From positions 1 through 31,772 of the IMG/VR virus record IMGVR_UViG_3300042518_000811: a stretch of 31,772 bases of DNA; one strand, 5' to 3'. The translations under genes and the position numbers were made by a program. Under the pieces are notes generated by a model that worked only from the letters and a program-made list of their open reading frames with translations, ran no database searches and had not been told where the DNA came from. The stretch is from a virus. Position 1 is the first letter of the stretch. Each line of letters begins with the position of its first letter. Below are positions 23,533 to 27,987 of the stretch, piece by piece.

Positions 23533-23717
23533 TTCCCCGCCCTCCGATACTCCCGCATATCCCGCCCCAACAACCACCGCAGGCACTCGCCCCCATTGCC
23601 TACGTCCTCGACCTCGACGCACAAGTCAGAGCATTTGCCGTGATCTTGCAGCGCGTTCATAACGAGGCGCGGATCAAGGTTGTTGTCTGCGATCCATCGC
23701 ATAAGCGTCTTGCTCAA
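23529..23717 (-). CDS. Hypothetical protein (62 aa, or 57 aa from the ATG at 23702)
   Basis: A small acidic protein downstream of the DpdA-like gene. The TTG at 23717 would start in a TTGA overlap with the DpdA-like stop; an ATG at 23702 is the alternative. It contains MRWIADNNLDPRLVMNALQD and an acidic, Cys-containing middle (CSDLCVEVEDVGN). No family is recognised. It may belong to the modification cluster by position, but nothing in the sequence says so. Confidence 0.55.
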   Translation of the reverse strand: MSKTLMRWIADNNLDPRLVMNALQDHGKCSDLCVEVEDVGNGGECLRWLLGRDMREYRRAGK

Positions 23718-24355
23718 AGCAAAGCCTCCATGACCATCTGCGGCCTTTTGTCGTTGCGGGTGGACAAGCGCAGGTATCGCTCAAGGCCTGCCAGTTGATC
23801 TTGGTCGCCGCGAAACCAGCCCGTGCCGTCACACGATTCTGCTCCCGCTTCGTGAGCCATCCACAAAAGCCGCTCGGTGTTGACCCGCCCAACGTGGACG
23901 CGAGCATGATGTTCAGTGAAGTGCCGAAGGTTCCGCCATTTCCACTCGGTCGAGCCACCCACAAAGACCACATCCGCCGTTAGCGGCACGTCATCGGTGG
24001 TCATGCCGTCCTGCACTACAAAGGCCAGCGGCACGTTGATGATGTCTTTGATGCGCCTGTGCCACTCGACCCACTTGGCCTTGGTCGCCTCCGCATCGGC
24101 TACCACATCCGGCGCGGCCACCCACATCGGGCGAGCATGAGGGCGCACGCGGTCAAGAAGGTCGATAAACGCCTGCTCGTCCCACTCGCGCTTGTTTAGC
24201 CATGCGCCGAAAGCGCCGTTGTCGAGAGCGTAAGGCATCCAAGACGGTGGCTTTTTCCACGAACCGGGAGAGATCAGCCATCCCAAGCGATTTGGATACT
24301 TGCCGCACAAGTAACCTGCTTCGATGCCGCTGTTATTTGAGGGCATGACCAGCAT
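23714..24355 (-). CDS. dpdA: DpdA-like tRNA-guanine transglycosylase family protein (213 aa)
   Basis: The sequence resembles the phage DpdA (DpdA2-type) branch of the TGT superfamily, which swaps guanine in DNA for a 7-deazaguanine. Ordered blocks are YALDNGAFGAW, AAPDVVADAEATKAKW, LAFVVQDGMT, DVVFVGGSTEWKW, VHVGRVNTERLLWMA and ESCDGTGWFRGD, consistent with strands of a TIM barrel carrying the catalytic and base-binding Asp residues. It is short (213 aa) compared with bacterial TGT. It overlaps the QueC gene by 23 nt. The start is the ATG at 24355; 24346 is also possible. Family recognition is from memory. Confidence 0.6.
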   Translation of the reverse strand: MLVMPSNNSGIEAGYLCGKYPNRLGWLISPGSWKKPPSWMPYALDNGAFGAWLNKREWDEQAFIDLLDRVRPHARPMWVAAPDVVADAEATKAKWVEWHRRIKDIINVPLAFVVQDGMTTDDVPLTADVVFVGGSTEWKWRNLRHFTEHHARVHVGRVNTERLLWMAHEAGAESCDGTGWFRGDQDQLAGLERYLRLSTRNDKRPQMVMEALL

Positions 24356-24947
24356 CGGCAATGGCTTTCAGTCTCACTTGGCACGCACCGCATTGGCCGC
24401 ACGGCTCGTCGCCGCCTGCGTAGCATGACCACGTTTCTTCCAGCGGCACGTTTAGCCGCCATGCAATATCGACCACCTTGGCCTTGGTGCGGACGATGTA
24501 GGGCAAATGCACCTCCATTCGCCGCGTGTGGCAGCACCGCAGGGCAAAATTGAGGTGCTTCATAAAGTCGGCGCGGCAATCGGGATAAACCTCGGCATCG
24601 TCACCGTTGACCGCGCAGGAAACCGCCGTGCATCCGTGCGAAAGCGCATAGCTTGCCGCCATTGCGATCAGCACCATGTTGCGGTTTGGCACTACGGTTG
24701 GCTTACCGACCAGCGGCTCGGTTCCTGTGGTCAGCGCCGACCGCTCAAATAGCTGCGGCGGCAGGGTGATTTTGTCGTAGGCCACGCCCAGCTTGGCGCA
24801 AGTCGCCTCGGCAAACGTCAGTTCTTTGATGTGCCGCTGTCCGTAGTCGTAGAGCAGGCAATGGGCTTTGTGGCCTTGATGCAGAAGGTCGTAAAGCAGG
24901 GTGGTGCTATCCAGCCCGCCCGACATGAGATGAGTGAATTTAGCCAT
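24333..24947 (-). CDS. queC: 7-cyano-7-deazaguanine synthase QueC (204 aa)
   Basis: QueC converts 7-carboxy-7-deazaguanine to preQ0 using ATP and ammonia. The PP-loop motif SGGLDSTT is at residues 9-16, VPNRN at ~86-90, a conserved NGDDAEVYPDCR in the middle, and the zinc-binding Cys175, Cys183, Cys186 and Cys189 (CGQCGAC region) at the C-terminus. Length is close to bacterial QueC. It is not fused to an amidotransferase domain, unlike the Gat-QueC of some phages. It lies between QueD and the DpdA-like gene, 1 nt after the QueD stop. Confidence 0.92.
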   Translation of the reverse strand: MAKFTHLMSGGLDSTTLLYDLLHQGHKAHCLLYDYGQRHIKELTFAEATCAKLGVAYDKITLPPQLFERSALTTGTEPLVGKPTVVPNRNMVLIAMAASYALSHGCTAVSCAVNGDDAEVYPDCRADFMKHLNFALRCCHTRRMEVHLPYIVRTKAKVVDIAWRLNVPLEETWSCYAGGDEPCGQCGACQVRLKAIADAGHALK

Positions 24948-24948
24948 A

Positions 24949-25302
24949 TCAGTTCTTGGTCAGAATCACGTTTGAGGTTGGTGTTTCGCGGACTTCGACG
25001 CGGGAAAGCAGCGGCAATCGCGGCTGCAATTCGCGCCAAAGCCACGCGGCAAGGTTTTCGGCAGTGGTCGCGCATGGCAGGATGTCGTTGAGGTTTCGGT
25101 GATCGAGGGACGCCACGATCGGCTTCACCACGGCGCTGATGTCCGCGTAGTCCTGCACCCATTCGTTAGCGATTGGGCCGCACACGCCGATCAGCACTTC
25201 GTAGCTGTGACCGTGCAGGCGATGGCATTGATGGTCTGCCGGGAGATGCGGCAGCGAGTGAGCCGCCTCAAAGCGGTAGGTTTTAGTGATTTCGTATCTC
25301 AT
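24949..25302 (-). CDS. queD: 6-carboxy-5,6,7,8-tetrahydropterin synthase QueD (117 aa)
   Basis: QueD makes 6-carboxytetrahydropterin from dihydroneopterin triphosphate. Zinc-ligand His15, His30 and His32 are present (FEAAH at ~11-15 and CHRLHGHSYEV at ~26-36), with catalytic Cys26, the Asp-His pair LDHRNLND at ~66-73, and ATTAENLAAWLW plus a final Glu (VREtp, ~104-108). Length is typical (about 120 aa). It precedes QueC in the same operon. FolE and QueE are not seen in this window, so those steps must come from the host or from outside the window. Confidence 0.92.
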   Translation of the reverse strand: MRYEITKTYRFEAAHSLPHLPADHQCHRLHGHSYEVLIGVCGPIANEWVQDYADISAVVKPIVASLDHRNLNDILPCATTAENLAAWLWRELQPRLPLLSRVEVRETPTSNVILTKN

Positions 25303-26127: not shown

Positions 26128-26996
26128 GCCGCCACCCCCACCCCTGCTATGCGCTGCCGCATTTCGCTTATGCTTGCCTTGAGCGCCCGCACCTTTGCCA
26201 TCGGTTCCGCTTTGAGGCGGCGGTCGAAGCTGTCCTCGACCTGTTCCTTGTTCGATGGGTTAGCTTGGATGCGTTCGATTTCCTTGGTTGCTGCGTCAAT
26301 GCGCTGTTGCGTGGCCCATACGCTCTCTGGCGCGGCTTTTCCGTTCCCGTTAGGTCTTCCTGCCCCGTTGCCCCTCCGGGCGCGAATCTGCGAGGCTCGC
26401 GCCATCATGTTCGCCTGCCACTTGACGATGGGGTTGCCGCGATAGTCCGTCCACTGGCCGTAAGGGGTGATGGGTCGGGATTCGTTGTCGTGCCAGATTT
26501 CCTCGGCAATCTCCCGCTCAATCCCTGCTTGCCTCCCCGTCTCTATAAATTCCTCCAAGGTGGGGGTCTGAAAAACCATATGGTTTCCATTTGGTTTGCA
26601 TATAGGTGAAGAGGAAGAGGAAGAGGATGTATTAGGGGAAGGGAGTATGAGGGAAGGGGGGGCGGCTTTCGGCCTCCCCCCTTTGCGCCCGATCTCCCAT
26701 AGGCGAATAATCTGCGCTTGATGCTCGGCGTAGCCGTGCAGCGACCACGTGCCGTCCTCTGCCCCGTCCAGCCACGGCGCGGCGGGGTCGGTCATGGTCG
26801 CCCACAGCAACGCCTCGTCGCCGGGGTATTCCATCACGGCGGCGAGCTTGGTCGGGTTAAGGACGAGGCCCGTGTATTGCCGCTTGATCTTGGCCTGCCC
26901 CCACAAGCGGAGCAGGCCCAAGACCGCCTCGGCCCCGCAAATGCGGTGCAGGCGCTTTGTTTTCCAATGGTCGCAGAAGCTCGGCTCAATCTTCAT
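26124..26996 (-). CDS. Phage replication initiation / replisome organiser-like protein (290 aa)
   Basis: The ATG at 26996 (ATGA overlap with the methyltransferase stop) opens MKIEPSFCDHWKTKRLHRIC, followed by a helical winged-helix-like N-terminal domain (CGAEAVLGLLRLWGQAKIKR and so on to ~120 aa) resembling DnaD/replisome-organiser N-domains. A Ser7 linker (from GAAGAG repeats) leads to a C-terminal domain (GQWTDYRGNPIVKWQANMMA) similar to the DnaD-like C-domain of phage replication proteins, and a final coiled coil. Probably binds the origin and helps load the replicative helicase. The family is inferred from layout. Confidence 0.6.
   Translation of the reverse strand: MKIEPSFCDHWKTKRLHRICGAEAVLGLLRLWGQAKIKRQYTGLVLNPTKLAAVMEYPGDEALLWATMTDPAAPWLDGAEDGTWSLHGYAEHQAQIIRLWEIGRKGGRPKAAPPSLILPSPNTSSSSSSSPICKPNGNHMVFQTPTLEEFIETGRQAGIEREIAEEIWHDNESRPITPYGQWTDYRGNPIVKWQANMMARASQIRARRGNGAGRPNGNGKAAPESVWATQQRIDAATKEIERIQANPSNKEQVEDSFDRRLKAEPMAKVRALKASISEMRQRIAGVGVAA
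26608..26625 (-). repeat. Three tandem GAAGAG hexamers encoding a Ser-run linker
   Basis: Plus strand reads GAAGAG three times in a row followed by GATG; in the coding (minus) frame this gives the Ser run in the interdomain linker of the replication protein. Slipped-strand length variation could change linker length without a frameshift when six bases are gained or lost. Confidence 0.6.
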
Positions 26997-27729
26997 GCCG
27001 CGCCTCCCAAGAGATGCCATGCGAGTCGCACCACTGCGCTGCATTGGCCGTTTCCAATGGCGCGCAATCTGTCCACCCTATCGGCCACCCCATCAGCCAC
27101 TCGCTGAATATCGGGGGCGGCGGTGCGCCAAAAAGCACATCGGCCAAAGCCCCCGGCAGAGAGTGTCGGTTCCCCCAACGCTTGCGGCATTCGCCCTTCC
27201 AGTCCCGTGTGCGCGGGGTCGGATACTTTCGGCCAGAATAAGCCCCAGAATCGCTTGCGCTGATGTGGTGCTCCTGCTTCTTGCGCCGATATAACTCCCC
27301 ACCGACCATTGAACCCCATTGCGGCAAGGTCAGCGAGAACGTTGGCAAGTCCTCCGCGAATAAGTCGCGGACTGTTTTCCACGAACACGTAGCGGGGTCG
27401 AACTTCACCGATAATGCGAGCCATGTGTCGCCATAGCTGCATGGATTCGCCCTCGTAGTCGTTGCCTCCGTTGTGCTGATGTTTGCCAGAGCTATGATCG
27501 GTGCAGGGGAATCCCCCGCTAATGACATCGACCCGTCCGCGCCACGGCTTTCCGTCAAACGTGGTGACGTTGTCCCAGATCGGGAATCGCGGCAGGAATC
27601 CATCCCGCTGTCGGGCAAGCAATACCCGGCGGCAGTAGGGATCAAGCTCGACAGCGCAGACGGTGCGCCATCCAAGCAACTTGCCCCCCAAGATGCCTCC
27701 TCCTGCTCCTGCAAAAAGTGCCAACTCAT
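26986..27729 (-). CDS. Overprinted second reading frame of the methyltransferase locus (247 aa)
   Basis: An ATG at 27729, 4 nt inside the methyltransferase start (GTGAATG), opens a 247-codon frame that ends 7 nt beyond the methyltransferase stop. The conceptual protein carries blocks I know from a phage family often annotated as methyltransferase-related: LALSVKFDPATCSWKT, FSLTLPQWGSMVGGELY, KYPTPRTRDWKGE and IFSEWLMGWPIGWTDC. Each lies opposite a methyltransferase motif in the other frame. It may be a real overprinted protein, or that database family may be a reading-frame artefact. Translation is not shown. Confidence 0.4.
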   Translation of the reverse strand: MSWHFLQEQEEASWGASCLDGAPSALSSLIPTAAGYCLPDSGMDSCRDSRSGTTSPRLTESRGADGSMSLAGDSPAPIIALANISTTEATTTRANPCSYGDTWLALSVKFDPATCSWKTVRDLFAEDLPTFSLTLPQWGSMVGGELYRRKKQEHHISASDSGAYSGRKYPTPRTRDWKGECRKRWGNRHSLPGALADVLFGAPPPPIFSEWLMGWPIGWTDCAPLETANAAQWCDSHGISWEARHED

Positions 27730-27733
27730 TCAC
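26993..27733 (-). CDS. DNA (cytosine-5) methyltransferase (246 aa)
   Basis: Start is the GTG at 27733, in a GTGA overlap with the winged-helix gene. Motif I is LALFAGAGGGILGG (residues 4-17), motif IV GGFPCTDHSS with catalytic Cys77, motif VI VFVENSPR (~117-123), motif VIII GAPHQRKRFW (~154-163), and the C-terminal motif RVDRLRAIGNGQ (IX-X region). Gln after Pro-Cys is replaced by Thr and ENV by ENS, both known variants. The target-recognition region is very short. It may protect phage DNA from host restriction. It overlaps the replication gene by 4 nt. Confidence 0.85.
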   Translation of the reverse strand: MNELALFAGAGGGILGGKLLGWRTVCAVELDPYCRRVLLARQRDGFLPRFPIWDNVTTFDGKPWRGRVDVISGGFPCTDHSSGKHQHNGGNDYEGESMQLWRHMARIIGEVRPRYVFVENSPRLIRGGLANVLADLAAMGFNGRWGVISAQEAGAPHQRKRFWGLFWPKVSDPAHTGLEGRMPQALGEPTLSAGGFGRCAFWRTAAPDIQRVADGVADRVDRLRAIGNGQCSAVVRLAWHLLGGAA

Positions 27734-27987
27734 TTCGTGCCTCCGGTTAGCGAATACTCCGCAATCCGCTTGCCGCTGGCCGTCTCGACCGTGCGCTCCA
27801 CGATTGCCCAACCTTCCCGCCGCAACTCATGGACGCGCGCAGCCAGACGGAAGCATCCGAATAGCTCCAGCGCGTCGAGCGGGGTAAGCCGATGACCCTC
27901 CTGCAAGAAGCGCAGAATGCGGCCCGCTTGTGTCGGACGTTTGTGCGTCTCGGCAGGCGCAAACGTCAGTTCGGGTTGCCAAGTCAT
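27730..27987 (-). CDS. Winged-helix domain protein (85 aa)
   Basis: An 85-aa protein whose main part (QAGRILRFLQEGHRLTPLDA, then LELFGCFRLAARVHELRREG) matches the small winged-helix domain common in phage proteins, with a beta wing at WAIVERTVETASGKRIAEYS. It could be a DNA-binding regulator or replication accessory. It has ATGA/GTGA overlaps with both neighbours, starting in the 60-aa gene and ending in the methyltransferase gene, so all three are translated together. Confidence 0.7.
   Translation of the reverse strand: MTWQPELTFAPAETHKRPTQAGRILRFLQEGHRLTPLDALELFGCFRLAARVHELRREGWAIVERTVETASGKRIAEYSLTGGTK

Follow-up and report, generated by a model that had tools for sequence, protein, structure and literature searches.

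The window analyzed here, the complete stretch of 31,772 nucleotides (nt) of the IMG/VR virus record IMGVR_UViG_3300042518_000811, carries two almost completely overlapping open reading frames (ORFs) on its minus strand, on which all features described here are located. Frame A (26993..27733) starts with GTG at 27731-27733, ends with a stop codon at 26993-26995 and encodes a protein of 246 aa, predicted to be the alpha (catalytic) subunit of a C5-cytosine methyltransferase. Frame B (26986..27729), an ORF of 247 aa in the +1 frame, starts with ATG at 27727-27729 and terminates at 26986-26988, 7 nt past the stop codon of A; its match to the family phrog_1008, the depletion of stop codons and a reversal of the wobble pattern mark it as the predicted beta subunit. 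The two starts overlap in the heptanucleotide GTGAATG (27727..27733), with B beginning 4 nt behind A. A Shine-Dalgarno-like GGAGG site (27740..27744), the role of which is inferred, is located 6 nt ahead of the GTG of A and 10 nt ahead of the ATG of B. The gene directly upstream (27730-27987) encodes an 85-aa winged-helix protein (PF14090, E=8e-14), and its TGA stop codon (27730-27732) overlaps the GTG of A and directly precedes the ATG of B, which suggests translational coupling. Each codon of B is composed of the second and third bases of an A codon and the first base of the next one, so that the wobble position of A is the second base of a B codon and the wobble position of B is the first base of an A codon.

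Frame A contains the C5-methyltransferase motifs I-VIII and X. It meets membership of the Pfam DNA_methylase family PF00145 by motifs I (FAGAGGG), IV (GGFPC), VI (ENS), VIII (QRKR) and X (GNG), aligning to the family only at residues 4-162 (E=6.6e-23), and it matches phrog_363 over its length in a PHROG profile search. Motif IX is absent from A and sits in B; A thus does not meet the definition of a single-chain C5-methyltransferase with a target recognition domain (TRD) and motif IX in one chain. An AF2 model of A reached a pLDDT of about 90 across most of the catalytic domain and was good except at residues 78-91 and 173-208; the latter stretch fell below a pLDDT of 50 and is predicted to be disordered. 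The best PDB fold matches of the model were M.HaeIII (E=1.5e-11) and M.HhaI, and the motif X helix is visible in it. The disordered stretch is part of residues 165-221 between motifs VIII and X (27071..27241), which by the wobble reversal and the low pLDDT is a passenger reading opposite the recognition-like region and motif IX of B. Motif X of A (RLRAIGNGQCSAVVRLA) follows at 27020..27070, where the A wobble position is dominant again and stop codons in B are not avoided.

Three parts can be distinguished in B. Residues 1-106 (27412..27729) are open without detectable constraint on the amino acids, as judged from stop depletion, third positions behaving as in control genes, and pLDDT; the model shows a short N-terminal helix followed by low predicted order, with a pLDDT below 50 in most of residues 25-106. 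Residues 107-202 (27124..27411) form a variable target-recognition-like region (DPATCSWKT ... PQWGSM ... YPTPRTRDWKG), supported by the phrog_1008 match at residues 81-187 and by the reversed wobble pattern facing residues 165-221 of A. Motif IX, around FSEWLMGWPIGWTD, occupies residues 203-225 (27055..27123) and was identified by a pattern survey and by the same motif lying in frame in A of Streptomyces and in gp5 of mycobacteriophage Firecracker. The C-terminal motif has the form NPxWVEWLMGWPxGWTD and resembles motif IX of M.HhaI (LHPRECARVMGYPDSY). The family phrog_1008 (E=2.5e-18) is named 'DNA methyltransferase', yet its sequence is that of frame B; apart from it, only small PHROGs of unknown function were matched. 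No Pfam family was matched by B in a Pfam scan, including those B forms which carry motif X, and a B profile run against PDB sequences yielded an unrelated best match (E=0.33). As the B model is of low confidence (mean pLDDT 58.5) and found no match among PDB folds, the TRD role of residues 107-202 remains without structural confirmation and is inferred from their place between motifs VIII and IX.

The initial annotation had described the coordinates, lengths, start codons and stop offset of both frames correctly, and the sequence blocks it named in B are all present in the B translation. It had assigned motifs I-X to A, which is true for I-VIII and X but not for IX, and it overlooked that B supplies the motif missing from A.

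In another part of the window (23714-25302), QueC (PF06508, E=3.7e-50) is encoded beside a QueD-like PTPS protein (PF01242, E=1.6e-29) and a third protein with a weak match to the queuine tRNA-ribosyltransferase family (phrog_887, E=1.3e-6). This cluster is probably a module for 7-deazaguanine modification of DNA, carried by the phage alongside the methyltransferase.

Selection on the two reading frames

Stop codons in B were counted in 73 homologues retrieved with A alone, a set which is for that reason not biased to B, and compared with a null obtained by permutation of synonymous codons. Only 12 stops were observed in B compared to 344 expected, 11 of them at the 3′ end of B, whereas the +2 frame contained 1058 compared to 892 expected. 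The sole A-selected homologue with a stop in the body of B (L060, 3001-3717; at about codon 99) has an intact A frame. In an enlarged set of 132 loci, combining A-selected and B-selected ones, B stops numbered 6 (150 expected) opposite A residues 2-80, none (249 expected) opposite 81-164 and none (177 expected) opposite 165-224; from motif X onward, where B ends, 94 were found compared to 67 expected.

The start codon of B is likewise preserved. Codon 2 of A is AAT in 124 of 124 cases encoding Asn across the 132 loci and never AAC, which would destroy the ATG of B, although AAC is the more frequent codon elsewhere in the same genes (AAT:AAC = 418:631). Codon 3 is GAG in a ratio of 128:3. One of the search patterns spanned MNELALFA; such a pattern selects residues, not codons.

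The frame under selection changes along the gene. In close pairs, the ratio of first- to third-position changes in A was 0.38-0.51 over motifs I-VIII, rose to 2.21 between VIII and X and returned to 0.53 at motif X; the fastest base is accordingly the wobble position of A over motifs I-VIII and that of B (the first position of A) over VIII-X. In 32 independent, non-overlapping pairs, 377 first-position and 892 third-position changes were counted over I-VIII compared to 463 and 318 over VIII-X (p=2e-7), and the same switch was obtained for the window and a single homologue (L003), with 13 versus 38 and then 25 versus 4 changes. In Streptomyces, the reversal is confined to VIII-IX (2.56) and the pattern of A is restored at IX (0.17), coinciding with the presence of motif IX in frame A. 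In the VIII-X half, the recognition region and motif IX of B are the conserved frame and the A stretch is the passenger. Overprinting had been proposed with B as the added frame; a second coding frame does exist, but in the C-terminal half the direction is reversed.

Since residual ancestry at third positions is lost in the synonymous-permutation null, control genes were used in addition, comparing third-position change at equal first-plus-second-position divergence. Third positions opposite A 2-110 diverged as in the control genes; over A 111-164 their change was lowered (0.33 vs 0.43; 0.40 vs 0.53), and in VIII-X it was strongly lowered (0.08 vs 0.53, with few pairs; 0.19 vs 0.59). Thus the first ~110 residues of B are kept open with no sequence constraint detected, and its C-terminal part is a constrained protein; the predicted order in both models agrees with this map, B being of low confidence at 25-106 and A well predicted outside 78-91 and 173-208. 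Constraint on all of B, which was also considered, found no support, given the control-like third positions opposite A 2-110. The identity of B in this part exceeds that of the permutation null (0.43 vs 0.32), which probably reflects shared ancestry, as third-position divergence there equals that of control genes.

Distribution of the overlapping frames and of motifs IX and X

Among the best 80 bacterial and archaeal genome loci found by B, all 80 overlap an A-type methyltransferase and no free-standing B was detected. They belong to Proteobacteria, Actinobacteria, Opitutales and Akkermansia metagenome bins (MAGs), Planctomycetota, Spirochaetia, Patescibacteria and a Euryarchaeota MAG. Three B queries matched 23, 93 and 46 phage records, including mycobacteriophage SG4 and its relatives, in which the nested frame is unannotated. 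The arrangement is further carried by Leptospira and Acinetobacter plasmids and by 4 of 5,426 E. coli genomes. One E. coli locus (L211, strain PCP07014, 2501-3262) is flagged in RefSeq as a pseudogene, a cytosine methyltransferase with an internal stop; in its translation a stop interrupts both A and B, at almost identical positions.

Which of the two frames appears in public records depends on the choice made by the gene caller. In Pseudomonas phage phPA-G, Vibrio phage 1.236.O and phage Shamal, frame B is annotated as 'hypothetical protein', whereas in near relatives the annotated gene is the methyltransferase of frame A; gp56 of Paenibacillus phage Shelly carries the note 'g55 internal gene', and gp57 of Jacopo is recorded as methyltransferase. 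The initial annotation had offered two explanations, overprinting that creates a second protein or a family arising from frame-shifted annotation. Each is right in part: the former is supported by B being open, its start codon being kept and its C-terminal half evolving as a protein-coding frame, and the latter by phPA-G, 1.236.O and Shamal being represented by B and their relatives by A. The outcomes named as refuting did not occur, neither random stops in B (12 vs 344) nor, among the best 80 genome loci, free-standing B genes.

The assignment of motifs IX and X to the frames was determined by two pattern surveys. Motif IX in B with X in A was found in 128-133 loci, both motifs in B in 4 and both in A in 5, and no locus had IX assigned to both frames; as ~20% of the loci remained unassigned in each survey, these counts are lower bounds. 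In five Streptomyces loci (L178, L179, L182, L186, L187), motif IX (GRLNPPFVEWLMGLPAGHVTD) immediately precedes motif X (LKALGNG) in frame A, so that IX and X are in A and only the recognition-like region is in B. Conversely, the catalytic ORF gp6 of mycobacteriophage Firecracker stops after motif VIII, and the overlapping gp5 comprises the recognition-like region, IX and X; in a Spirochaetia (L175) and a Euryarchaeota locus (L188), A also ends after VIII and B carries IX and X. In the phrog_116 alignment, motifs I-VIII of A are located at 212-378 and IX-X of Firecracker gp5 (beta) at 441-482. Motif IX in Firecracker gp5 and in B of L175 and L188 gave no match to Pfam DNA_methylase; the motif IX link therefore rests on the PHROG profiles and the in-frame Streptomyces case. 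The frames of IX and X vary while the combined set stays whole, which indicates that a complete motif set is kept across A plus B.

Several loci show frame swaps or interruptions. In Mycobacterium phage Llama (L210, 1432-2191), an indel of one base compared with SG4 exchanges the frames mid-gene, as a result of which the annotation lists two 'DNA methylases', gp74 and gp75; what follows of B falls into the third frame, and the same indel occurs in several records. Loci in a Fibrobacter MAG (L164) and a Gallionella MAG (L168) also contain mid-gene swaps, with one ORF consisting of the first part of one protein and the second part of the other, which are either real variants or assembly errors. 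In L110, L111 and L150, an in-frame stop interrupts A close to motif VIII or behind it, while B continues without interruption there and motif X is found downstream in the A frame; X is possibly translated separately, or the gene is decaying.

A predicted split methyltransferase

We consider it very likely that the locus encodes a split C5-cytosine DNA methyltransferase of the M.EcoHK31I kind, with A as alpha and B as beta subunit, the genes of which are reciprocally overprinted. The dual open frames, the preserved start codon, the selected frame of each segment, the partition of IX and X across lineages and the constant association of B with A are direct observations; translation of both frames, the heterodimer, the TRD role of B and enzymatic activity are inferred. 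Both polypeptides would be synthesized from one mRNA with one ribosome-binding region and starts 4 nt apart. A would provide S-adenosylmethionine binding and catalysis via motifs I-VIII as well as the motif X helix, B would contribute the target-recognition-like region and motif IX, and the two would assemble into one working enzyme. This enzyme is supposed to methylate the phage DNA, most likely shielding it from host restriction. Reciprocal overprinting would mean that over motifs I-VIII A is constrained and the N-terminal ~110 residues of B are a passenger needing only to lack stops, and that between VIII and X the constraint is on B with the A stretch as passenger. Against this model, there is no direct evidence for translation or enzyme activity, and the ~110 N-terminal residues of B show no constraint other than openness.

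Programmed ribosomal frameshifting could also account for motifs in canonical order over two frames (I-VIII in A, IX in B, X in A): ribosomes would read A up to motif VIII, continue in B after a +1 shift to translate the recognition region and IX, and return to A for X, yielding one polypeptide. One +1 shift would suffice for the full enzyme in Firecracker, L175 and L188. However, most members would require two opposite shifts, and neither the preserved B start (AAT in 124/124) nor a stop-free N-terminal half of B would be needed. Moreover, the Firecracker frames overlap by about 200 nt and not at a shift site, and M.EcoHK31I is reported as two polypeptides (PMC3404938). We regard frameshifting as quite unlikely. 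It also appears very improbable that B has a function of its own, such as inhibition or regulation, and merely overlaps the methyltransferase. Its lack of a Pfam match and of any family other than phrog_1008 and small PHROGs without known function would be compatible with such a role, but B holds exactly the motif missing in A, IX and X switch frames between lineages with the set staying complete, and B never occurs without A in the best 80 genome loci.

Shadow conservation, by which B would be open and similar only due to the conservation of A and biased codon use, might explain why the first ~110 residues of B are constrained in openness only, and a shifted frame is indeed bound to retain some similarity (the permutation null gives a B identity of 0.25). 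Selection on A alone cannot, however, yield 12 instead of 344 stops, AAT in 124/124 cases or first positions of A evolving faster than third ones, and we consider this explanation hardly tenable; a chance or shadow ORF was likewise ruled out by the stop counts against synonymous permutation and the wobble reversal. Equally untenable is a hidden homing endonuclease, for which an out-of-frame ORF in a phage methylase, the ShiLan insertion of mycobacteriophages, provides a published precedent (PMC11855218), as no HNH or homing-endonuclease Pfam match was obtained (77 B proteins scanned for HNH) and B covers the whole gene instead of an insertion and includes motif IX.

Beyond this locus, the split, overprinted methyltransferase probably represents a large and mostly half-annotated class in phages, bacteria and archaea, in which the catalytic domain and the recognition region are encoded in two frames, IX and X may be in either and the enzyme stays whole, so that an apparent single, truncated or pseudogene methyltransferase is often a two-subunit enzyme. 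In the searchable literature, from which most subscription papers are missing, the ShiLan case was the only overprinted phage methyltransferase found, and neither the family-wide extent nor the reciprocal pattern nor the frame changes of IX and X were encountered. As gene callers retain one frame and discard the other, cloning or modelling of many phage methyltransferases would omit the recognition half, and the enzymes would be deemed inactive. The locus is in addition a clear prokaryotic example of long genes which overlap on one strand and have a definable role, and in which the selected frame can be read for each segment.

Comparison with known systems

M.EcoHK31I, a bacterial two-polypeptide C5-methyltransferase reportedly documented biochemically by Lee, Kam and Shaw in 1995, is said to consist of polypeptides of about 309 and 176 aa, the small gene lying inside the large one in another frame, and to require both for methylation of YGGCCR. 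The window resembles this reported layout in that the beta gene lies inside the alpha gene in another frame of the same strand; it differs from the reported sizes in that its two subunits are about equal in length (247 aa for beta, 246 aa for alpha). Among C5-methyltransferases, M.EcoHK31I is regarded as a rare exception; such an arrangement is now found in many phages and prophages, the hosts of which include Acinetobacter, Pseudomonas, Vibrio, Salmonella, Klebsiella, Paenibacillus and Mycobacterium, and also in Streptomyces, Leptospira and an archaeal MAG. The division of motifs is shared as well: in M.EcoHK31I the large polypeptide carries I-VIII and X, and the small one carries IX (PMC3404938), as in alpha and beta of the window. 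Its predicted TRD was placed in alpha, not beta (PMC3404938), whereas the recognition-like region of the window is in beta by the wobble pattern, again as a TRD lacking structural support.

In M.AquI, alpha carries I-VIII and beta IX-X (PMC3404938). This partition is not met in the window, where X is in A and the genes overlap almost completely, but it is met in L175, L188, L201 and L204; the forms of Firecracker, L175 and L188, with A ending after VIII and B carrying IX and X, resemble M.AquI. A plasmid methyltransferase of Picosynechococcus PCC 7002, considered as a possible M.AquI, is not of this type.

Two further phage systems contain an additional ORF inside a methyltransferase gene. Shelly gp56 and Jacopo gp57 of Paenibacillus phages are nested +1 ORFs with motif IX in a phage C5-methyltransferase gene and match phrog_1008 strongly (E=8e-74); unlike in the window, their B starts about 180 nt inside A and not 4 nt past its start, and they are known from annotation only. 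The ShiLan domain is a hidden HNH endonuclease inserted in a mycobacteriophage methylase (PMC11855218) and shares with the window an out-of-frame ORF inside a phage methylase gene, but it is a mobile nuclease insertion, whereas B is part of the methyltransferase itself; with no HNH match among 77 B proteins in Pfam and B spanning the whole gene, the locus does not fit the ShiLan type. M.HhaI and M.HaeIII, finally, have the catalytic motifs and the predicted catalytic-domain fold in common with A, but hold all motifs and the TRD in one chain encoded in one frame.
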